DNA from: Psychrobacter sp. Ps6
GTDB lineage: Bacteria; Pseudomonadota; Gammaproteobacteria; Pseudomonadales; Moraxellaceae
Direction of reading: 5' to 3'
Length of the DNA stretch: 64,000 bases
Assembly: GCF_022129235.1 (NCBI RefSeq)
Contig: NZ_JADQAI010000006.1
Span: 124,001 to 188,000 of the forward strand
Below the pieces are notes generated by a model. That model was not told the DNA's origin, made no database searches, and was given only the letters and a program-made list of their open reading frames with translations. This document shows positions 13,072-21,234 of the stretch, piece by piece. The stretch's first letter is position 1, and the number at the start of each line of letters is the position of its first letter. The position numbers were made by a program, and so were the translations under genes.

Positions 13072-13170
13072 GTCTACTAAAATCAGTATCTAACGCTATA
13101 GTTAAAGAGGTATTTAAGCTATCATTACAGATAGGCTCTAAATATCCTCTACTATTTGAGTGTTAAAGGT

Positions 13171-14064
13171 ATGGCTTCTGACATTTTGTTTGTGATTGCC
13201 CTGATGATGGTCGTCAGTTTGGTTTGGGGCGCACTTGCCATCCCTTATCTGCGCAAACGTTTACCGAAGATATACTTAATTGCGCGCTCTTGGTGGCTGA
13301 TGTTAGCGACGCTATGCACGTGTTATGTGATTGCAAAGATAGCGAACGACAACCAAAGTGCCAATTATCAAGCGCATCCCTATCAATGGCTGATTGTTTT
13401 ATTCTTTATCTTAATCGGTTTACGCGGTGGCTATGAGATCAAACGCCTGTGGTGTCTGCGTAGTAGAGAAACCCTTATTCAAAAACTCCGAGCACGCGGT
13501 TTGCAGCCAGACTCTCTACGCTGTCCTAATGCCTCCTTAGACGCTACGCAAAACTATACGCGTCTTAACTTTTTAGATTTGCTATTCAGCGTTGTCTTTG
13601 CCTCCCTAATAGTTAGCCTAATCGCCTTACAGAAATTGACGTGGCAACGCGAACAATACGGTGTGTTGCTCTTCGTACTATTTGCCAGTCAGTTTAATGA
13701 TATTGCCCAATATCTATGCGGGCGATTGCTGGGGCGCAAACTGTTTCAACGAGGACTCGCCCCAACGATTAGCCCCAATAAAAGCATTGAAGGTGCTGTC
13801 TTTGGCAGTTTTTTTGCAGCGATATTGGCAGCATTATTGGGTCTTTGGCTCACCCCTTTTAATGGGTGGGTATGCCTGCTAGCAGCCTATGGCTTGGCAG
13901 TCAGCGGTATTTTTGGCGATCTATTAGAATCAGCGTTTAAACGCCAGCATGGGGTAAAAGATACGGGAACCATGCTCGCTGGACATGGTGGCGTATTAGA
14001 TAGGATAGACAGTTTGCTCATCGGCGTCCCGCTATTTACCGTATTTTACTGGCTACTTGGTTAA
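13171..14064 (+). CDS. YnbB-like phosphatidate cytidylyltransferase (CDP-diglyceride synthase family)
   Basis: The 297-aa membrane protein has about seven hydrophobic segments and the CdsA-family C-terminal signature: [13 protein letters not shown] at mid-length, [18 protein letters not shown], and [12 protein letters not shown] near the end, with the expected Asp and Lys residues. Such enzymes make CDP-diacylglycerol from phosphatidate and CTP. Its length and sequence style fit the E. coli YnbB subgroup (298 aa) better than essential CdsA. The reading frame also opens at a TTG (13156); neither start has a good ribosome-binding site. It converges, with a 26-bp gap, on an operon holding a YnbA-YnbC-like fusion, so it may supply that enzyme with activated lipid. 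Confidence 0.87.
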
Positions 14065-14090
14065 CTGTACTAACAGTACGGATAGCAACA

Positions 14091-14918
14091 TTATCTGGTT
14101 TTATCCAATTTGCTGCGTAATAGCCAATTGAGTACAGGCTTAGGCAAATGATTTAAGACGCTCGTGATATATCGCATCGAACGTGGAAATATTGCCAGCT
14201 CTACATCATCGTCAATTGCTTGCATGACATGACTGACTGCTGTTTGCGTACTCATGATAAATGGCTTATGACTAGCATCACCATTATTCAAATCACGTAA
14301 CGCTTGGGTGTCGATATAGCCTGAGGCAATAGCATTCACTTGAATATCATAAGGGGCAAGTGCCGCTCGATATGCGCTGGCAGTCGCAATCATCGCGCGT
14401 TTGCTTTTTGCATAAAGACTGGCATAAGGATATTCCATCGTACCTGCGATAGAAGCGATACAGACAAGGCTTGGTCTGCTACATTTGGTCAAATCCAATG
14501 CCTGATGTGATTGTTTCAACTGCTGCTTTAATTGACTGCTTGCCCATTTAAAAATCTGCTCAAATGCTTGTAAATTAATCGCTAGCATTTGATTGCTGTC
14601 GGCTTGGTTCAACTGATGGACACGCTCATTAGTATAGCTGCCAGCACTATAGATAAGCCTTTGAAATCTAATATCGGATAGACTGTCCAACAACGCTTGT
14701 GTCTGATTCTGATCGGTCAAGTCGCATGCATAGGTCACGATAGTAGGATATTGGCTGTTGATATCGGCTATCTTTGCCGTATTACTCCCCACAACGCTCA
14801 CTTGCCAGCCAAGCGCTTGATGATGCAGCGCCAATGCCAAGCCAAGACCGCTTGTACCACCAACAACGATAATATGCGGTGTGTTGTTCATATAATTAGA
14901 TGATGTAGCGTATTTCAT
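14091..14918 (-). CDS. Short-chain dehydrogenase/reductase
   Basis: The 275-aa protein has the Rossmann nucleotide-binding motif VVGGTSGLGLALA near residue 20, the Asp of VTYACDLTD, and the catalytic Ser (CIASIAG) and YAKSK (YxxxK). The active site is therefore complete. The family oxidises or reduces alcohols, ketones or acyl chains with NAD(P); its substrate here is unknown. Its start overlaps the stop of the patatin-like gene by 4 bp (ATGA), so it is translationally coupled and last in the operon. An ATG at 14891 could be used instead; it drops nine non-conserved residues. Context suggests a lipid-related substrate. Confidence 0.9.
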   Translation of the reverse strand: MKYATSSNYMNNTPHIIVVGGTSGLGLALALHHQALGWQVSVVGSNTAKIADINSQYPTIVTYACDLTDQNQTQALLDSLSDIRFQRLIYSAGSYTNERVHQLNQADSNQMLAINLQAFEQIFKWASSQLKQQLKQSHQALDLTKCSRPSLVCIASIAGTMEYPYASLYAKSKRAMIATASAYRAALAPYDIQVNAIASGYIDTQALRDLNNGDASHKPFIMSTQTAVSHVMQAIDDDVELAIFPRSMRYITSVLNHLPKPVLNWLLRSKLDKTR

Positions 14919-16117
14919 AGGTCATGCTGCTGTATGTAATCGGTCGTACGTTGGTAGCCGTACTGCCATTGCGCCTGCATTTGCTGCACAAATCCATCAT
15001 AGTCACGATGTATGAGCTCAACGGTCATTTGTTTTAGGTTAAAACGCTTTTGCACATTTTTCCCTATTAGTTGCTGCGCGTTATCTGCGAATGGCAGCCA
15101 ATGTAGCTGATGGTTTTTACTAGTAGTATGCGATGGCTCTTTCATTGGGTTATAACCATGCACTTGTGCCAATCGGTCATTGGGGTCAAAACCAAAAACA
15201 CGCTGAATCGCTGGGACAGCAAGCCATGAGTCATATCCCGCCTTGGTCTCGGCAAATACTGTCTCAGCCAACTGACAAGCCAGCTCGATCGGCGTAAGAT
15301 TAATCACGCCGCCCAAGCACCAGCCAAGCTCTGTGATATGCGTGGGCGGTAAATAATACATATCAGCCATAGAAGCGCGAACCACTGAGGCAAAATCCCA
15401 TTGAGTTTGTACTTTTACAGACGGGTGTATGCGTCCATTAGCGAACGTATGCGCTGATGACATTATTTGCTCGTCGGCCAGACTTGATACTGAATTTGAC
15501 AAATTTGCTAAGCGCGGTGGCGCAAATAATAACTCTTGCAGTGTTAGTGTTGTATTAAACGAATCATCAGTAGGCGCTTGATACAAACGGCTAGCAATGA
15601 TAGCTATCTCTGGTGACGCTTTATGAGCAGCGCTATTATCGTCGCTACCGTTATTGTTACTAGTAGCAAACTGCGACAATTCATCGAGCCACTCTGCCTC
15701 GTTATCGATACGAAACATTGCTAACTGCTGTAACTCATTTAACAGTCGCTCGTAGCTGTCTGCTTGACGTTGTCCTTGTCCATTGTCTCGCAACTTTGAT
15801 AACCACCAACGTTTGAGTGCATAGGTCATATAACGCAGCTTTAGAAGTTTATTGGCTTCATCTGGCGCAACATGTCGAATTGCAGTAATGACACGATACA
15901 GTTCGCGACTGCTCATGAGTTCCTGTAAGTGCTTAGGATCAGGCGCAAGTTGTACTAAGTAAGCAGACAGACTACCACCGCAAGTACCAACGATAATGTC
16001 TGGCGTTAAGTCATGAGACGCCAAGGCTGCGTAGCTACCCAAATAATAACCAAAGCGTGAGCCACCACCTGAAAAAAGCTGCACACGCTCGTAAGGCTTG
16101 ACCCGCTCATTATTCAT
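14915..16117 (-). CDS. Patatin-like protein with degenerate catalytic dyad
   Basis: The 400-aa protein has the patatin fold landmarks: an oxyanion-hole loop FSGGGSRFGYYLG (about residues 15-27) and a nucleophile elbow at 41-51. The usual GxSxG reads G-T-C-G-G, so the catalytic serine is a cysteine (C46). The usual DGG/DGA near residue 267 reads L-G-G in WCLGGVINLTPIELA, so the catalytic aspartate is lost. Classical Ser-Asp phospholipase chemistry is therefore unlikely; it may be a lipid-binding or regulatory subunit, or use cysteine. It sits between the SDR (4-bp overlap) and the trifunctional gene (3-bp gap) in one leftward operon. Confidence 0.8.
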   Translation of the reverse strand: MNNERVKPYERVQLFSGGGSRFGYYLGSYAALASHDLTPDIIVGTCGGSLSAYLVQLAPDPKHLQELMSSRELYRVITAIRHVAPDEANKLLKLRYMTYALKRWWLSKLRDNGQGQRQADSYERLLNELQQLAMFRIDNEAEWLDELSQFATSNNNGSDDNSAAHKASPEIAIIASRLYQAPTDDSFNTTLTLQELLFAPPRLANLSNSVSSLADEQIMSSAHTFANGRIHPSVKVQTQWDFASVVRASMADMYYLPPTHITELGWCLGGVINLTPIELACQLAETVFAETKAGYDSWLAVPAIQRVFGFDPNDRLAQVHGYNPMKEPSHTTSKNHQLHWLPFADNAQQLIGKNVQKRFNLKQMTVELIHRDYDGFVQQMQAQWQYGYQRTTDYIQQHDL

Positions 16118-16120
16118 CTA

Positions 16121-18820
16121 TTATTCATCATCAGTTTGTGCGGTTTTAATCGCTAATGACACGGTAAAAATACCAAAGCGATCGATACGCATCGTGACTT
16201 TCTTAAAGCCTGCGCGCTCAACAAGTTGATCCATTTCCGCTTGCGAGCGACAGCGCATGACCCAACTGCTACCATGGTGATTGTTCAATGTTTTACTGAT
16301 GAACTCCTGCTCAGGATGCCAAGGTTGATTGGTATAAATCAAATAACCACCCAATTTTAGGCTGTTATAAATACCAGCCAATGCCGTCGCTGGTAATGTA
16401 TTATCAGAGAATAGTTCAAACAACCCAGAAGCGATAGCGATATCAAATGTTGTCGTATCCGTACTGGCATCTTTCGTCCGTACATTGGTATAACTGGCAG
16501 GATCAAAGGCATCTTTTTTGCTTATCACTACCCTACTAGCCATTGCCAGTTGCTCTGCTTTTGCTTGCAGCGCTTCGATATTATACATCTCATAATCACG
16601 TAGCTCAGCGTGCAGATCTGCAAACTCTGTCAGTAGATCAAACGCATAAAAACCATGACCACTCGCGATATCTAACAGTTTTGGTTGGTATGCTTTATTG
16701 CTGCTTTGGTTTTTATCTTTGATATCTGCGAGTGCTAAACGTGCCAGCTCTAATATATGCTCACGGCGAATGCGTATACCCTGCCAGCCAATATTATTTA
16801 GATAGAATTTATCGACTGCCTGTCCAAATTTGTTCTGACCGCTGGGCTGATTGTAATAGACATGATCCAGCGAATGACCAGAATCAAACCCATGCTCCAG
16901 CCCTGTAGCAATCGCAGCGCTGACATGACCGAATTTCTGCATCGCAAAACGGGTAATCGCAAAGTTTGGATTGAACGGCTTAATCGCCAACCGATCCACT
17001 TTATCTTTACTGGCGCTGTTTAAATGGGCGGTACTCAAATCAGGCGCTTGTACTTGTGTGCTAAATACCTGCTCGGCAAACTCAATACAGTCTGCGAATA
17101 CGTCGGCTTTATTGGTTTCATGAAAAATTGCATGATAGCTATCTGGGTATAACTGCCAGCGTTTGGTCGGGGTATTAATCGCTTCATAAAATGTCCGCTC
17201 AGCCTGCTTATCGACCACATAATCCTTACCCGCGCATAAGACAAACGTCGGCACGGTGATAGCCCCTGCATCATCGAGCAAGCGCTTACCCGTCGCATGA
17301 GTGTCGATGAGCAAGTCGGTCGAGATACTGTTAGATATTAACGGATCCGCATTATAGGCTTGCTGCGCGTCTTTATCATGAGTCAGTACTTGTGCTTTGA
17401 CATAGCTGCTGACACGTGACATTAGGCCTAGTGTACGTGCTACCTTGAGCGACGGTATGGCAAAGGGCAAATACAGACGAATACTGAGCGCAGGCGTGCC
17501 CAATATCATCCCGCGAATATTGGGTGCATAATCATGTACCCATGCGGCTGCTAGTACTGCGCCAATACTACTGGCGACAATCAGCGTGTCTTCGATAGCG
17601 ATGCTAGTTTGTCCCATGACCAATTGCACAAAACCGTCTAAATCGCGCTCAAGCTCTGTGACGCTCTCAGCATGATCTTTGATACCGCCTGAGCGACCAT
17701 TGCCGCGTGCATCCCAAGCAAATACTTGATAGCCCGCTTTTGCAAACTGCTCTCCTAGCTCTGCCAATCGCCCCGAGTGCTCATGACCTCGGTGCAATAA
17801 AATAACTTGGCGTAATGGTTGACTGGCTTCTTTTATCTGCTCTAAAGACATCGTTAGCCAATAGCGATAATAAATAGCCGTACCATCGTAAGCGTTATAG
17901 CAGCTTTCACCATTGATAACCTTCTCCTCAGGAACATGAATACCGTCGTTCATATCCTTTGAGGTATCTTTGGTATTTTCAGAAATAGATGGCATTGTTT
18001 TGGACTCCAAAAAGGAAGCTTGAGTAGCAGAATTTGACATAGAAAAGTTGGAAACAGAGCCGTCAGGAGATAAAGTATCAGCTTGAATAGAATCGTTATG
18101 GCAGATCATAAGAGGAGCGGATTTGTCTGACCGACATACAGGCGGGTTACGCATCAAGTATAACGCTGCCATATAGCGCAGTCGATTGAGGCAAGTCTTT
18201 AATAACATGACCTCTATCAGTATAAGAAATTGTCCCATTCTGGGATGAAACCATGATATCGGTGCTTTCATATATATTGGTGTTTTAATACCCATAACCG
18301 CACCAAGCGCACCCAACACAAAAGCACGGTCGCTTTTACCCAAAGGCCCTTGATTGGCACGGTTGCCTAAAACTGCATCACTGGCTATACCCAACAATTC
18401 GGTGCTGATACTAAGCGCGATCAAACTAAAAATGTGCTGCTGATGAGCTGATAAACTGATTACTGACGCATCACTTTTCTGGTCAGCGACATGAGGTAAC
18501 AGACTCGCTAGCAACGCCGTATCGGCAACGATATCACCTACTTCGTTCAGTACGGCACCTAGCGTTGACGCTTGATTATGTTCACGTGCCATCATACCGT
18601 CGATGGCATTGAGTGCCATACGTACAAACAATGAGGATGGTAATAAAAGCCATAATCTTTGTTTTTCGACGGCAGGTTTGGCAACCACATATGCCGTACC
18701 CACGCTTAATAGTACAGCAGATACTGTCACTTGATTGGCAGTCACATTTTGCTCGACCAGCGCATTACTTATCGGACGGAGCTGATCTTGAAAGTTAGAT
18801 TTGAGCTGGTATAGCGACAT
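16121..18820 (-). CDS. Trifunctional fusion: CDP-alcohol phosphatidyltransferase - alpha/beta hydrolase - SAM methyltransferase (YnbA-YnbC-like)
   Basis: This 899-aa protein joins three enzymes. Residues 1-230 are a membrane CDP-alcohol phosphatidyltransferase; its signature reads N71-AI-DG-MM-AR-x8-G-AVL-N92-EVG-D96, with Asn at two of the four usual Asp positions. Residues about 290-590 are a monoacylglycerol-lipase-like hydrolase: LLHRGHEHSGR, WDARGNGRSGG, elbow VASSIGA (S about 418) and a late YPDSYHAIFHE histidine. Residues about 620-899 are a class I methyltransferase with LLDIASGHGFYAFDLL (about 708) and IASGLFELF. E. coli carries the first part as YnbA and the other two as YnbC. The frame opens at TTG 18832; I prefer ATG 18820. 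It heads an operon with the patatin-like and SDR genes. Confidence 0.88.
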   Translation of the reverse strand: MSLYQLKSNFQDQLRPISNALVEQNVTANQVTVSAVLLSVGTAYVVAKPAVEKQRLWLLLPSSLFVRMALNAIDGMMAREHNQASTLGAVLNEVGDIVADTALLASLLPHVADQKSDASVISLSAHQQHIFSLIALSISTELLGIASDAVLGNRANQGPLGKSDRAFVLGALGAVMGIKTPIYMKAPISWFHPRMGQFLILIEVMLLKTCLNRLRYMAALYLMRNPPVCRSDKSAPLMICHNDSIQADTLSPDGSVSNFSMSNSATQASFLESKTMPSISENTKDTSKDMNDGIHVPEEKVINGESCYNAYDGTAIYYRYWLTMSLEQIKEASQPLRQVILLHRGHEHSGRLAELGEQFAKAGYQVFAWDARGNGRSGGIKDHAESVTELERDLDGFVQLVMGQTSIAIEDTLIVASSIGAVLAAAWVHDYAPNIRGMILGTPALSIRLYLPFAIPSLKVARTLGLMSRVSSYVKAQVLTHDKDAQQAYNADPLISNSISTDLLIDTHATGKRLLDDAGAITVPTFVLCAGKDYVVDKQAERTFYEAINTPTKRWQLYPDSYHAIFHETNKADVFADCIEFAEQVFSTQVQAPDLSTAHLNSASKDKVDRLAIKPFNPNFAITRFAMQKFGHVSAAIATGLEHGFDSGHSLDHVYYNQPSGQNKFGQAVDKFYLNNIGWQGIRIRREHILELARLALADIKDKNQSSNKAYQPKLLDIASGHGFYAFDLLTEFADLHAELRDYEMYNIEALQAKAEQLAMASRVVISKKDAFDPASYTNVRTKDASTDTTTFDIAIASGLFELFSDNTLPATALAGIYNSLKLGGYLIYTNQPWHPEQEFISKTLNNHHGSSWVMRCRSQAEMDQLVERAGFKKVTMRIDRFGIFTVSLAIKTAQTDDE

Positions 18821-19029
18821 AATGCTAGCCAAATATTATCAGTGCCTTAATGTATCAATAAAATTTTGTTTGGTAAAGAATTATAGCGCCTTAAGCTATT
18901 ACTGATCGACAATCAACGCCTGATAATTTTCTATACATCCTCGTTGCCCATGTCAGTATTGCTAAGATGATATGCTACAATCGCAAGCTTCTTAAAATAT
19001 CTTGTTAAAAATGCTGCGAGCCGACCACC

Positions 19030-19941
19030 ATGCAAAGCCTAATTACCCTCGTTTTGGTCTTGATGCCAATGTTTATTGGCTTTGCCATTCCCTCTAACCC
19101 GACCTTGACCAAACTTGCCGATAAAGGCTTGTCGTATTTGGTCTATCTTATCTTGGCATTGATCGGTATTGAGCTATCACAGGTAGAAGGGCTGGGTAAT
19201 CAAGTTGGCGAAATTGCCTTGTACGTGACCGTCTTATCTATATTGACGATTGGCACAGGATTGTTTGCACTTATGCTGTTTGACCGTGTACGACCATGGC
19301 ATGCCAAAAAACCAAGCGTCAAATCCAAAGAGCATCGTGTCAGTATTCGAGGCAGCTTAGCTCAGGTCGTTTGCGTCGTGATTGGCATGGTAATTGGTTA
19401 CTTCTTGCCTACTGATTATATGCCACCTGAAAACTCTATGACGGTCATGCTGATGATTTTGATCTTGTTGGTAGGTATTGGTCTCAAAGGCTCAGGTATT
19501 ACGCTAAAAGAAGTCATGCTCAATAAGCGCGGCGTCGAGATGAGCATTATTTTTACGCTATCGGTGCTAGTTGGTGGGCTTGTGTTTGCTTTGCTGTTCT
19601 CAGATGTGTCATGGACGAAAGGCTTGGCAATGGCATCAGGGTTTGGTTGGTATTCGCTATCAGCGATTGTCATGACCGATGCTTACGGCGCGGTATGGGG
19701 CAGTGTCGCGCTATTTAATGATTTGGTACGGGAGTTCTTTGCGCTGCTATTCATTCCTGTATTTATGCGCAAATATCCTTCGGCTGCTGTCGGGCTTGGC
19801 GGTGCGACCAGTTTAGACTTTACCTTGCCTATTATTCAACAGTCAGGTGGACTAAAAGTTGTGCCACTGGCAATCAGTTTTGGCTTTTTGATTAATATTG
19901 TCTCTCCTGTACTGATGGTGTTCTTTTCGGCATTGGGGTAG
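19030..19941 (+). CDS. lysO: LysO-family lysine exporter
   Basis: The 303-aa protein has about eight membrane segments and the LysO (YbjE, DUF340) features: an N-terminal half with KGLSYLVYLILALIGIELSQVEG and a C-terminal half with SGFGWYSLSAIVMTDAYG, ALFNDLVREFFALLFIPV and GGATSLDFTLPIIQQSGG. The conserved acidic residues within the membrane segments (D in TDAYG, and NDLVRE) are present. LysO proteins export lysine and toxic analogues. It is transcribed alone. With the ArgO-type gene at 5943 it gives the region two basic-amino-acid exporters of unrelated families. Confidence 0.92.
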   Translation: MQSLITLVLVLMPMFIGFAIPSNPTLTKLADKGLSYLVYLILALIGIELSQVEGLGNQVGEIALYVTVLSILTIGTGLFALMLFDRVRPWHAKKPSVKSKEHRVSIRGSLAQVVCVVIGMVIGYFLPTDYMPPENSMTVMLMILILLVGIGLKGSGITLKEVMLNKRGVEMSIIFTLSVLVGGLVFALLFSDVSWTKGLAMASGFGWYSLSAIVMTDAYGAVWGSVALFNDLVREFFALLFIPVFMRKYPSAAVGLGGATSLDFTLPIIQQSGGLKVVPLAISFGFLINIVSPVLMVFFSALG

Positions 19942-19968: not shown

Positions 19969-20604
19969 TTAGAACTCGACACATATCTTTGAAGCTGAGT
20001 CAGCCGGATCATTATAAGCGTTTATTTTTGGCTCTGTCGCTAGTCCATAGACTCGACGATTCATGGATTTTCCCTCTTCGGTGTCAGCTGATGCAATAGG
20101 CGCTCTGATACCACAGTCAAAAGCACTCAAACGACTAGGCTTGATGTCGTGTTTTAAAATAAGGTAGTTTTTGACCATCATAGCTCTATTTTTAGATAAA
20201 GTATTTAACGCCTGCCCCATTTCATCTTCCGAAATATGAGCTTCAATTTTCATAGTAGCGGTATCGTACTTATTCATCTGCTCTGCTACTTTATCAAGCT
20301 CAAGCTGATACTCTTTTGATAGCTCACTACTACCCTTTGTAAAAAAAGCACGATACTCCATTTTTAGACCTACTCCAATACCTGCAATAGGACAACCTAC
20401 TTCATCTATTATCACCTTCCAAGGTGTAGCTGGACACTCATCTATCGCATCAAGTACACCATCCCCATCGCTGCCTAAAATAACTTCTACAACTGGTAAA
20501 TCAGTAGTTTGAGTTGTTTGATTTTGCGAAACAGATGTTTGGCAGGCTGATAGCGCCAAAGCGCTTACCAAAATTAAAAATATATTTCTTAATTTGGTTT
20601 TCAT
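19969..20604 (-). CDS. OmpA-family lipoprotein, copy A
   Basis: The 211-aa protein starts with a lipoprotein signal peptide (ALALSAC, acylated Cys at residue 21). A short thrombospondin-3-like calcium segment follows (SDGDGVLDAIDECPATP ... GCP), then an OmpA C-terminal domain (about residues 75-200) with LNTLSKNRAMMVKNYL and MNRRVYG. The arginine of NRRV that contacts peptidoglycan is kept, but the loop normally reading GHTD reads AHIS, so the diaminopimelate-binding aspartate is missing. It is 12 bp downstream of a second OmpA-type lipoprotein with the same change; both end in Cys-x-EF. A structural outer-membrane role is likely; peptidoglycan binding is uncertain. Confidence 0.85.
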   Translation of the reverse strand: MKTKLRNIFLILVSALALSACQTSVSQNQTTQTTDLPVVEVILGSDGDGVLDAIDECPATPWKVIIDEVGCPIAGIGVGLKMEYRAFFTKGSSELSKEYQLELDKVAEQMNKYDTATMKIEAHISEDEMGQALNTLSKNRAMMVKNYLILKHDIKPSRLSAFDCGIRAPIASADTEEGKSMNRRVYGLATEPKINAYNDPADSASKICVEF

Positions 20605-20616
20605 AATATTTTGCCT

Positions 20617-21234
20617 TTAAAATTCTCTACAATCTAAGAGTGTATGATCATACCTGTCTCGTGCTGATATCCAACCGAACACTCGATGATTCATAATAGC
20701 TCCCTCCTCAGTATCATTAGGGGCAATAGGATTATCAGCGCTACAATCAAAGGTGCGAATTCTATGCGCTGGCAGGTCAAGATTAACCAAGTAATTTTTG
20801 ATACTTTGTGCACGAGCACTCGCTAATGGGTTAGAGTCCAGTTGCTGAGACGAGCCTTCAAGATGTAGAGCTTTCTCGTCAATGGCTTGCTGTTCAATTT
20901 TGGAGGTATGCCCTTGGACAAAAAAAGTCAGATTAGAACAGCGATCCGCGAACGCTATGATCTTATTTAATTCCGGAGTATATTGTTCCTTTATTTCGGC
21001 ACTATCTTTATCGAAAAACACTCGTAACTCCATAGACAATGTATCGTCCAAATCCACTGGCATAGGTTTGCCATTTTCATCAACAGGTGGCGGTTCAACC
21101 ACGCAAATGGAGGGCTTTAAAACCTCTTGTGCAATGTTACTTGTGGCTGGAGTCACTGACTGGCAGCCTGCTATTACCACAGCTCCTATCATCCATAAGG
21201 CAGTAGATAATTTTGTTGTCTTGAACGTCGTCAT
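20617..21234 (-). CDS. OmpA-family lipoprotein, copy B
   Basis: The 205-aa protein has a lipoprotein signal peptide (GAVVIAGC, Cys about residue 24) and an OmpA-type C-terminal domain (about 65-195). Landmarks are MELRVFFDKDSAEIKEQY, FFVQGHTSKIEQ, ASARAQSIKNYL and MNHRVFG. The peptidoglycan-binding Asp after GHT is Ser. An insert rich in Glu, Leu and Ser (about residues 115-135) replaces the usual short loop. It shares DTEEG, the ARAQ/NRAM helix, a Phe-Asp-Cys strand and the terminal Cys-x-EF with the gene 12 bp downstream, so the two are tandem duplicates in one operon. It lacks the thrombospondin-3-like segment. Confidence 0.84.
   Translation of the reverse strand: MTTFKTTKLSTALWMIGAVVIAGCQSVTPATSNIAQEVLKPSICVVEPPPVDENGKPMPVDLDDTLSMELRVFFDKDSAEIKEQYTPELNKIIAFADRCSNLTFFVQGHTSKIEQQAIDEKALHLEGSSQQLDSNPLASARAQSIKNYLVNLDLPAHRIRTFDCSADNPIAPNDTEEGAIMNHRVFGWISARDRYDHTLLDCREF

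Follow-up and report, generated by a model that had tools for sequence, protein, structure and literature searches.

The window (the whole stretch of 64,000 nucleotides that was analysed) carries, between nadA–nadB and a lysO-like gene, a four-gene cluster that is a real, co-inherited gene set and belongs to the widespread ynb/arc1 cluster as a divergent sub-type. The locus spans positions 13156–18832 in a genome of 3.48 Mb (G000) and encodes YnbA, YnbB and YnbC homologues together (Table 1). The original prediction had described a cytidylyltransferase gene meeting an operon of three further genes, and all four are present on the strands claimed, both as open reading frames and by their Pfam matches. 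The ends that it gave, 13171 and 18820, are the first ATGs inside frames whose upstream TTG starts lie at 13156 and 18832. The minus-strand genes for the YnbA–YnbC fusion, the patatin-fold protein (Pat) and the short-chain dehydrogenase/reductase (SDR) form one tight run, with a spacing of 3 bp between Pat and the fusion and an overlap of 4 bp between SDR and Pat, and the SDR gene converges with that of YnbB across a gap of 26 bp. Promoter and terminator scans gave sites no more numerous than in shuffles.

Table 1. Features of the cluster and its right-hand neighbour (window positions)
Feature	Position	Strand	Remarks
YnbB-type CDP-diacylglycerol synthase	13156..14064	+	likely start ATG 13171
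Short-chain dehydrogenase/reductase (SDR)	14091..14918	-	PF00106; cofactor and catalytic residues intact
Patatin-fold protein (Pat) without catalytic dyad	14915..16117	-	PF01734; Cys46 for Ser, Leu268 for Asp
YnbA–YnbC fusion, 903 aa	16121..18832	-	likely start ATG 18820; blastp to YnbC and YnbA
YnbA part of the fusion	18150..18820 (approximate limits)	-	motif N..DG..AR..G...N...D
LysO-like exporter, flanking, outside the cluster	19030..19941	+	PF03956, E=1e-51; right border of the insertion/loss site

The layout recurs in about 20 congeneric genomes as well as in Moraxella lacunata and Vibrio xiamenensis, which places the cluster beyond chance. YnbB and the PF12147 domain of YnbC co-occur perfectly, both being encoded in 23 of 36 congeneric genomes and neither in the other 13 (Fisher 4e-10, kinship ignored), so that the co-occurrence which the original prediction had proposed to look for in other genomes is all-or-none in the genus (23/23 vs 0/13). 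CdsA, which has a separate homologue at another site of the genome of the window, is present in all 13 cluster-minus genomes except the incomplete G014, which showed neither CdsA nor YnbB. Eleven of the cluster-minus genomes have a clean nadA–nadB–lysO site without the cluster. In one congeneric genome (G022), YnbB and SDR still lie at the nadB–lysO site and the fusion and Pat about 0.77 Mb away, and in another (G035) YnbB is likewise far from the fusion; the co-occurrence of YnbB and YnbC persists despite this separation. Such linkage-free co-inheritance in Psychrobacter yields a small set of four to five genes that could be reconstituted in a laboratory strain. A known anti-phage system was ruled out, as no PADLOC model matched the cluster at E values up to 0.01. 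Beside lysO, positions 19969–21234 of the window encode two OmpA-like lipoproteins in tandem, of which one has a repeat-like DSDGDGVLDAIDECP stretch, and the number and kind of these lipoproteins differ among relatives.

Direct blastp homology to E. coli YnbA, YnbB and YnbC bears out the Ynb relationship that had been proposed for the locus. With ynbABCD (b1408–b1411) it shares these three homologues, the YnbC part at full length, and the same Asn-substituted motif in YnbA, but it differs in that YnbA and YnbC are fused, YnbB is convergent and not in the operon, YnbD is unlinked, and SDR and dyad-less patatin-fold genes have been added, neither of which has a counterpart in E. coli ynb. The E. 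coli cluster is likewise without the acyltransferase (arc1E). The match of gene classes with ynbABC thus stands, although the description of that set as uncharacterised is incomplete, since its arc1 counterpart has a published defence phenotype (PMC8926400). In P. aeruginosa, PA2541–PA2536 constitute arc1A–F, antagonism resistance cluster 1, which is controlled by Gac/Rsm and required for survival when B. thailandensis attacks with its T6SS (PMC8926400); the text of that paper gives no functions for the arc1 genes and does not mention ynb. A search of genomes with its primer pattern for PA2541 found one genome (G551), in which three primer parts have exact matches where they are expected. Through the published primer sequences its genes are tied to PA2541 and PA2536. 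Some of the other primers are inexact, so that this genome may belong to a close relative and not to PAO1's own species. Its gene order is YnbA, YnbC, YnbD, a 150-aa ORF, an acyltransferase and YnbB, and by position and sequence arc1A, arc1B, arc1C and arc1F are YnbA, YnbC, YnbD and YnbB, respectively. Because primer matches and gene order agree, ynb and arc1 are one and the same cluster, and this joins two problems, as E. coli ynb is without an assigned product and arc1 defence without a described chemistry. The YnbC part of the window aligns with its arc1 counterpart at 37% over 600 aa (E=4e-134); the window locus differs from arc1 in lacking the arc1E acyltransferase and the 150-aa arc1D, and has the SDR and patatin-fold genes instead. 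The ORF at the arc1D position (L148:12733-13182, 150 aa) lies between YnbD and the acyltransferase and has no Pfam or NCBIfam match, and several other clusters have an unassigned gap of 0.3–0.6 kb at this place.

A scan of GTDB genomes with the YnbC alignment confirmed at least 507 relatives, and the loci of the best 80 of these, plus others, were mapped with HMMs. In the mapped loci, the common cluster consists of YnbA, YnbB, YnbC, YnbD and a PlsC-type acyltransferase and occurs in phyla that include Proteobacteria, Verrucomicrobia, Acidobacteria and Planctomycetes; the pairing of ynb genes with the acyltransferase in standard clusters extends to at least five phyla. Pat and SDR accompany the cluster, among the mapped loci, only in Psychrobacter, Moraxella lacunata and Vibrio xiamenensis, and no patatin-bearing locus has a match to the acyltransferase (arc1E, family F4). 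YnbA and YnbC are fused in Psychrobacter and are separate genes in M. lacunata and V. xiamenensis, where YnbD adjoins YnbB. In the YnbC tree a single deep clade (100/100) contains the Pat-bearing group together with two non-bearers, Marinobacterium being inside it; a single origin of the group without losses was rejected, as the tree requires three changes. Pat was not found in the genomes of P. coccoides (L079) and Marinobacterium lutimaris (L084), whose YnbA–YnbC are of the same clade, and it is therefore not strictly obligatory. Pat was also discarded as a common class-wide gene: among 369 class genomes, full-length profile matches are confined to its own genome, and the others are short glycine-loop matches.

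The gene set originally described holds for its four genes and had missed a partner, YnbD, a PAP2 plus DSP phosphatase that is not at the window locus. A relative of 521 aa, with a PAP2 region and an HCxxGxSRS motif, is encoded unlinked in the same genome (G000:C190:273465-275024). Intact YnbD is found in 15 of the 23 cluster-plus genomes and in 0/13 cluster-minus genomes, two broken remnants occurring among the latter, and it is not detectable in 8/23 cluster-plus genomes. The unlinked gene is divergent from an operon of 283-aa, AMP-ligase-like, TauD-like and SDR genes (L156:9309-13779, C190), which in the relatives seen has no connection with the ynb cluster.

On balance, we favour a model in which the cluster forms a self-contained route to a minor, modified phospholipid, and its product would harden the envelope against rivals. 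This pathway would run parallel to CdsA–PgsA–Pgp. YnbB would convert phosphatidic acid and CTP to CDP-diacylglycerol, the YnbA domain would transfer phosphatidyl to a phosphorylated alcohol (X-phosphate) via a non-canonical Asn/Asp metal site, and YnbD, encoded elsewhere in this genome, would strip the head-group phosphate from phosphatidyl-X-phosphate. Within the YnbC part, the lipase domain may edit an acyl chain and the SAM domain may methylate the product. In the Psychrobacter/Moraxella/Vibrio sub-type, in which SDR and dyad-less Pat would replace the PlpB/PlsC-like acyltransferase of the standard cluster, the SDR is predicted to oxidize or reduce the lipid, with Pat as a binding partner. 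By homology to arc1, whose role in defence was measured in P. aeruginosa (PMC8926400), the product might protect the envelope from bacterial attack. We infer the steps, X, the methylated atom, the product and the protective phenotype, and observe homology, gene content, co-occurrence and residue conservation. Of the lipid pathway first imagined for these genes, the lipid sense and the co-occurrence are retained and the acyl trimming assigned to the patatin-like protein is lost.

The fusion is a trifunctional protein, as had been foreseen, with CDP-OH_P_transf, Hydrolase_4 and Methyltransf_20 domains recognized by Pfam in one chain of 903 aa. Its YnbC part matches Hydrolase_4 (E=5e-56) and Methyltransf_20 (PF12147, E=2.5e-88), and the fusion aligns with E. 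coli YnbC at 40% over 604 aa (blastp, E=8e-158). The Ser-Asp-His triad of the hydrolase is kept among YnbC relatives (Ser in 110/112, Asp in 112/112 and His in 111/112), and the SAM motifs are conserved. In the AlphaFold model of the fusion (mean pLDDT 88), the hydrolase domain compares with the monoglyceride lipase Rv0183 of M. tuberculosis at a TM of 0.88 (target-normalised), and by its modelled fold it would belong among the monoacylglycerol lipases. It shares fold and triad with Rv0183 and human MGLL, but differs from them in being fused to a Methyltransf_20 domain, for which no informative relative was found among solved structures. Literature searches for fused hydrolase/methyltransferases, or for the function of E. 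coli ynbA/C/D, returned nothing useful.

Pat matches the Patatin family (PF01734, E=7.8e-16), and its AlphaFold model (mean pLDDT 72.6) gives weak to moderate matches to the folds of PlpD, CapE, CapV and VipD. It has in common with PlpD, CapV and CapE the fold and the glycine-rich oxyanion motif, whereas the dyad is replaced in all orthologues: aligned to PlpD, Pat has Cys and Leu in place of Ser and Asp, and these positions hold Cys in 38/38 and Leu, Ile or Met in 38/38. An active acyl hydrolase was therefore rejected for Pat, and trimming of an acyl chain by this protein, as originally proposed, is unlikely. Pat is probably a lipid-binding or scaffolding partner, and the acyl hydrolase, if any, would be the monoacylglycerol-lipase-like domain inside the fusion, where the triad is intact. 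The SDR matches adh_short (PF00106, E=7e-27), and its GGTSGxG motif and Asn-Ser-Tyr-Lys tetrad are invariant in 36/36 orthologues.

The cluster could alternatively serve the repair or recycling of lipids, the hydrolase and Pat sensing or removing lyso- or damaged phospholipids and YnbB and YnbA rebuilding them, with no novel lipid being made. The closeness of the hydrolase domain to monoacylglycerol lipases and the lysophospholipid-acyltransferase-like gene of the standard cluster are consistent with such a role, as is the defence of arc1 homologues against T6SS antagonism, one arc1 gene having helped cells to withstand the phospholipase toxin Tle3 (PMC8926400). Repair is nevertheless an unlikely explanation, as it offers no obvious part for a SAM methyltransferase or an SDR, the acyltransferase is missing from this sub-type, and the arc1 defect is not relieved by single-toxin deletions (PMC8926400).

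The YnbA domain matches CDP-OH_P_transf (E=1.5e-5), and the fusion aligns with E. coli YnbA at 39% over 215 aa (blastp, E=7e-36). Class I CDP-alcohol phosphotransferases bear the signature D1xxD2G1xxAR...G2xxxD3xxxD4, which is reported to be absolutely conserved in active enzymes (PMC4634129), D1–D3 binding metal and D4 acting as the base (PMC4634129, PMC6506517). Counted by alignment column in 109 YnbA sequences, D1 is Asn in 108/109 and D3 is Asn in 109/109, and D2 and D4 are kept; three other CDP-alcohol phosphotransferases of the same genome, taken as controls, carry all four Asp. The canonical four-Asp signature is therefore absent from YnbA, and of the CDP-alcohol transferase domain originally proposed the homology to YnbA survives and the canonical motif does not. 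With Asn at D1 and D3 across the YnbA proteins, catalysis by YnbA is not assured, and the family-wide replacement of two metal ligands would suit a catalytically dead domain, a membrane anchor or CDP-DAG binder that merely delivers YnbC to the membrane. We regard this as quite improbable, since nearly all 109 sequences retain D2, the base D4, G1, A, G2 and both acceptor arginines, which goes beyond the needs of an anchor, and in most genomes YnbA has a gene of its own. The closest solved relative of YnbA is the PIP synthase 6h53 (E=2e-15), that is, mycobacterial PgsA1 (6h53/6h59; PMC6506517), which shares both phosphate-binding arginines with YnbA and differs from it at D1 and D3 of the signature, where YnbA has Asn. 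In MtPIPS, R155 and R195 bind the phosphate of inositol phosphate (PMC4634129), and their equivalents are kept in 108/109 YnbA sequences each, which suggests a phosphorylated acceptor, with the YnbD phosphatase fitting as the next step.

YnbB matches CTP_transf_1 (PF01148, E=1.8e-42) and aligns with E. coli YnbB at 46% over 120 aa in the catalytic half (blastp), and the CDP-diacylglycerol synthase signature S..KR....KD........HGG..DR.D is kept in 96–97 of 98 YnbB family members. In E. coli, a ynbB knockout has no growth phenotype (PMC6362211). It is very unlikely, and ranked below the pathway set out above, that the cluster serves the glycolipid MPIase (GlcNAc-pyrophosphoryl-DAG) or alike, with YnbB converting CDP-DAG to a glycolipid precursor and the others modifying it to aid membrane protein integration: E. 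coli MPIase does rise on YnbB overproduction, and YnbB is no substitute for CdsA in bulk phospholipid (PMC6362211), but deletion of ynbB leaves the MPIase level unchanged, so that the effect is marginal (PMC6362211), YnbA, YnbC and YnbD go unexplained, and the 13/36 congeneric genomes without YnbB keep CdsA (the incomplete G014 showing neither).

The phospholipid pathway therefore remains the preferred reading, and it predicts a cluster-dependent methylated phospholipid that matters in bacterial antagonism. A bolder version can be put forward tentatively, in which YnbA represents a class of CDP-alcohol phosphotransferases that are active with an Asn/Asp metal site. The product of the cluster would then be a new methylated phospholipid that protects the envelope, and in this sub-type the SDR, aided by Pat, would change it further. 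Two enzymes of the cluster, YnbA and Pat, have unusual active sites that are conserved across the relatives examined. Both features, the conserved Asn in a signature held to be absolutely invariant and the loss of the patatin dyad in every orthologue, depart from known enzyme chemistry in ways that can be tested.

Some relatives present irregular copies of these genes. In V. xiamenensis the variant cluster is present twice, on different contigs (L082, L083), with identical HMM-mapping scores. In one relative, the Pat gene is interrupted by about 1.9 kb with a 441-aa ORF, probably an insertion element (L052:8233-10568), and in one relative the fusion gene is broken into two ORFs that overlap (481 and 460 aa), through a frameshift or an assembly error (L042:4328-7049).
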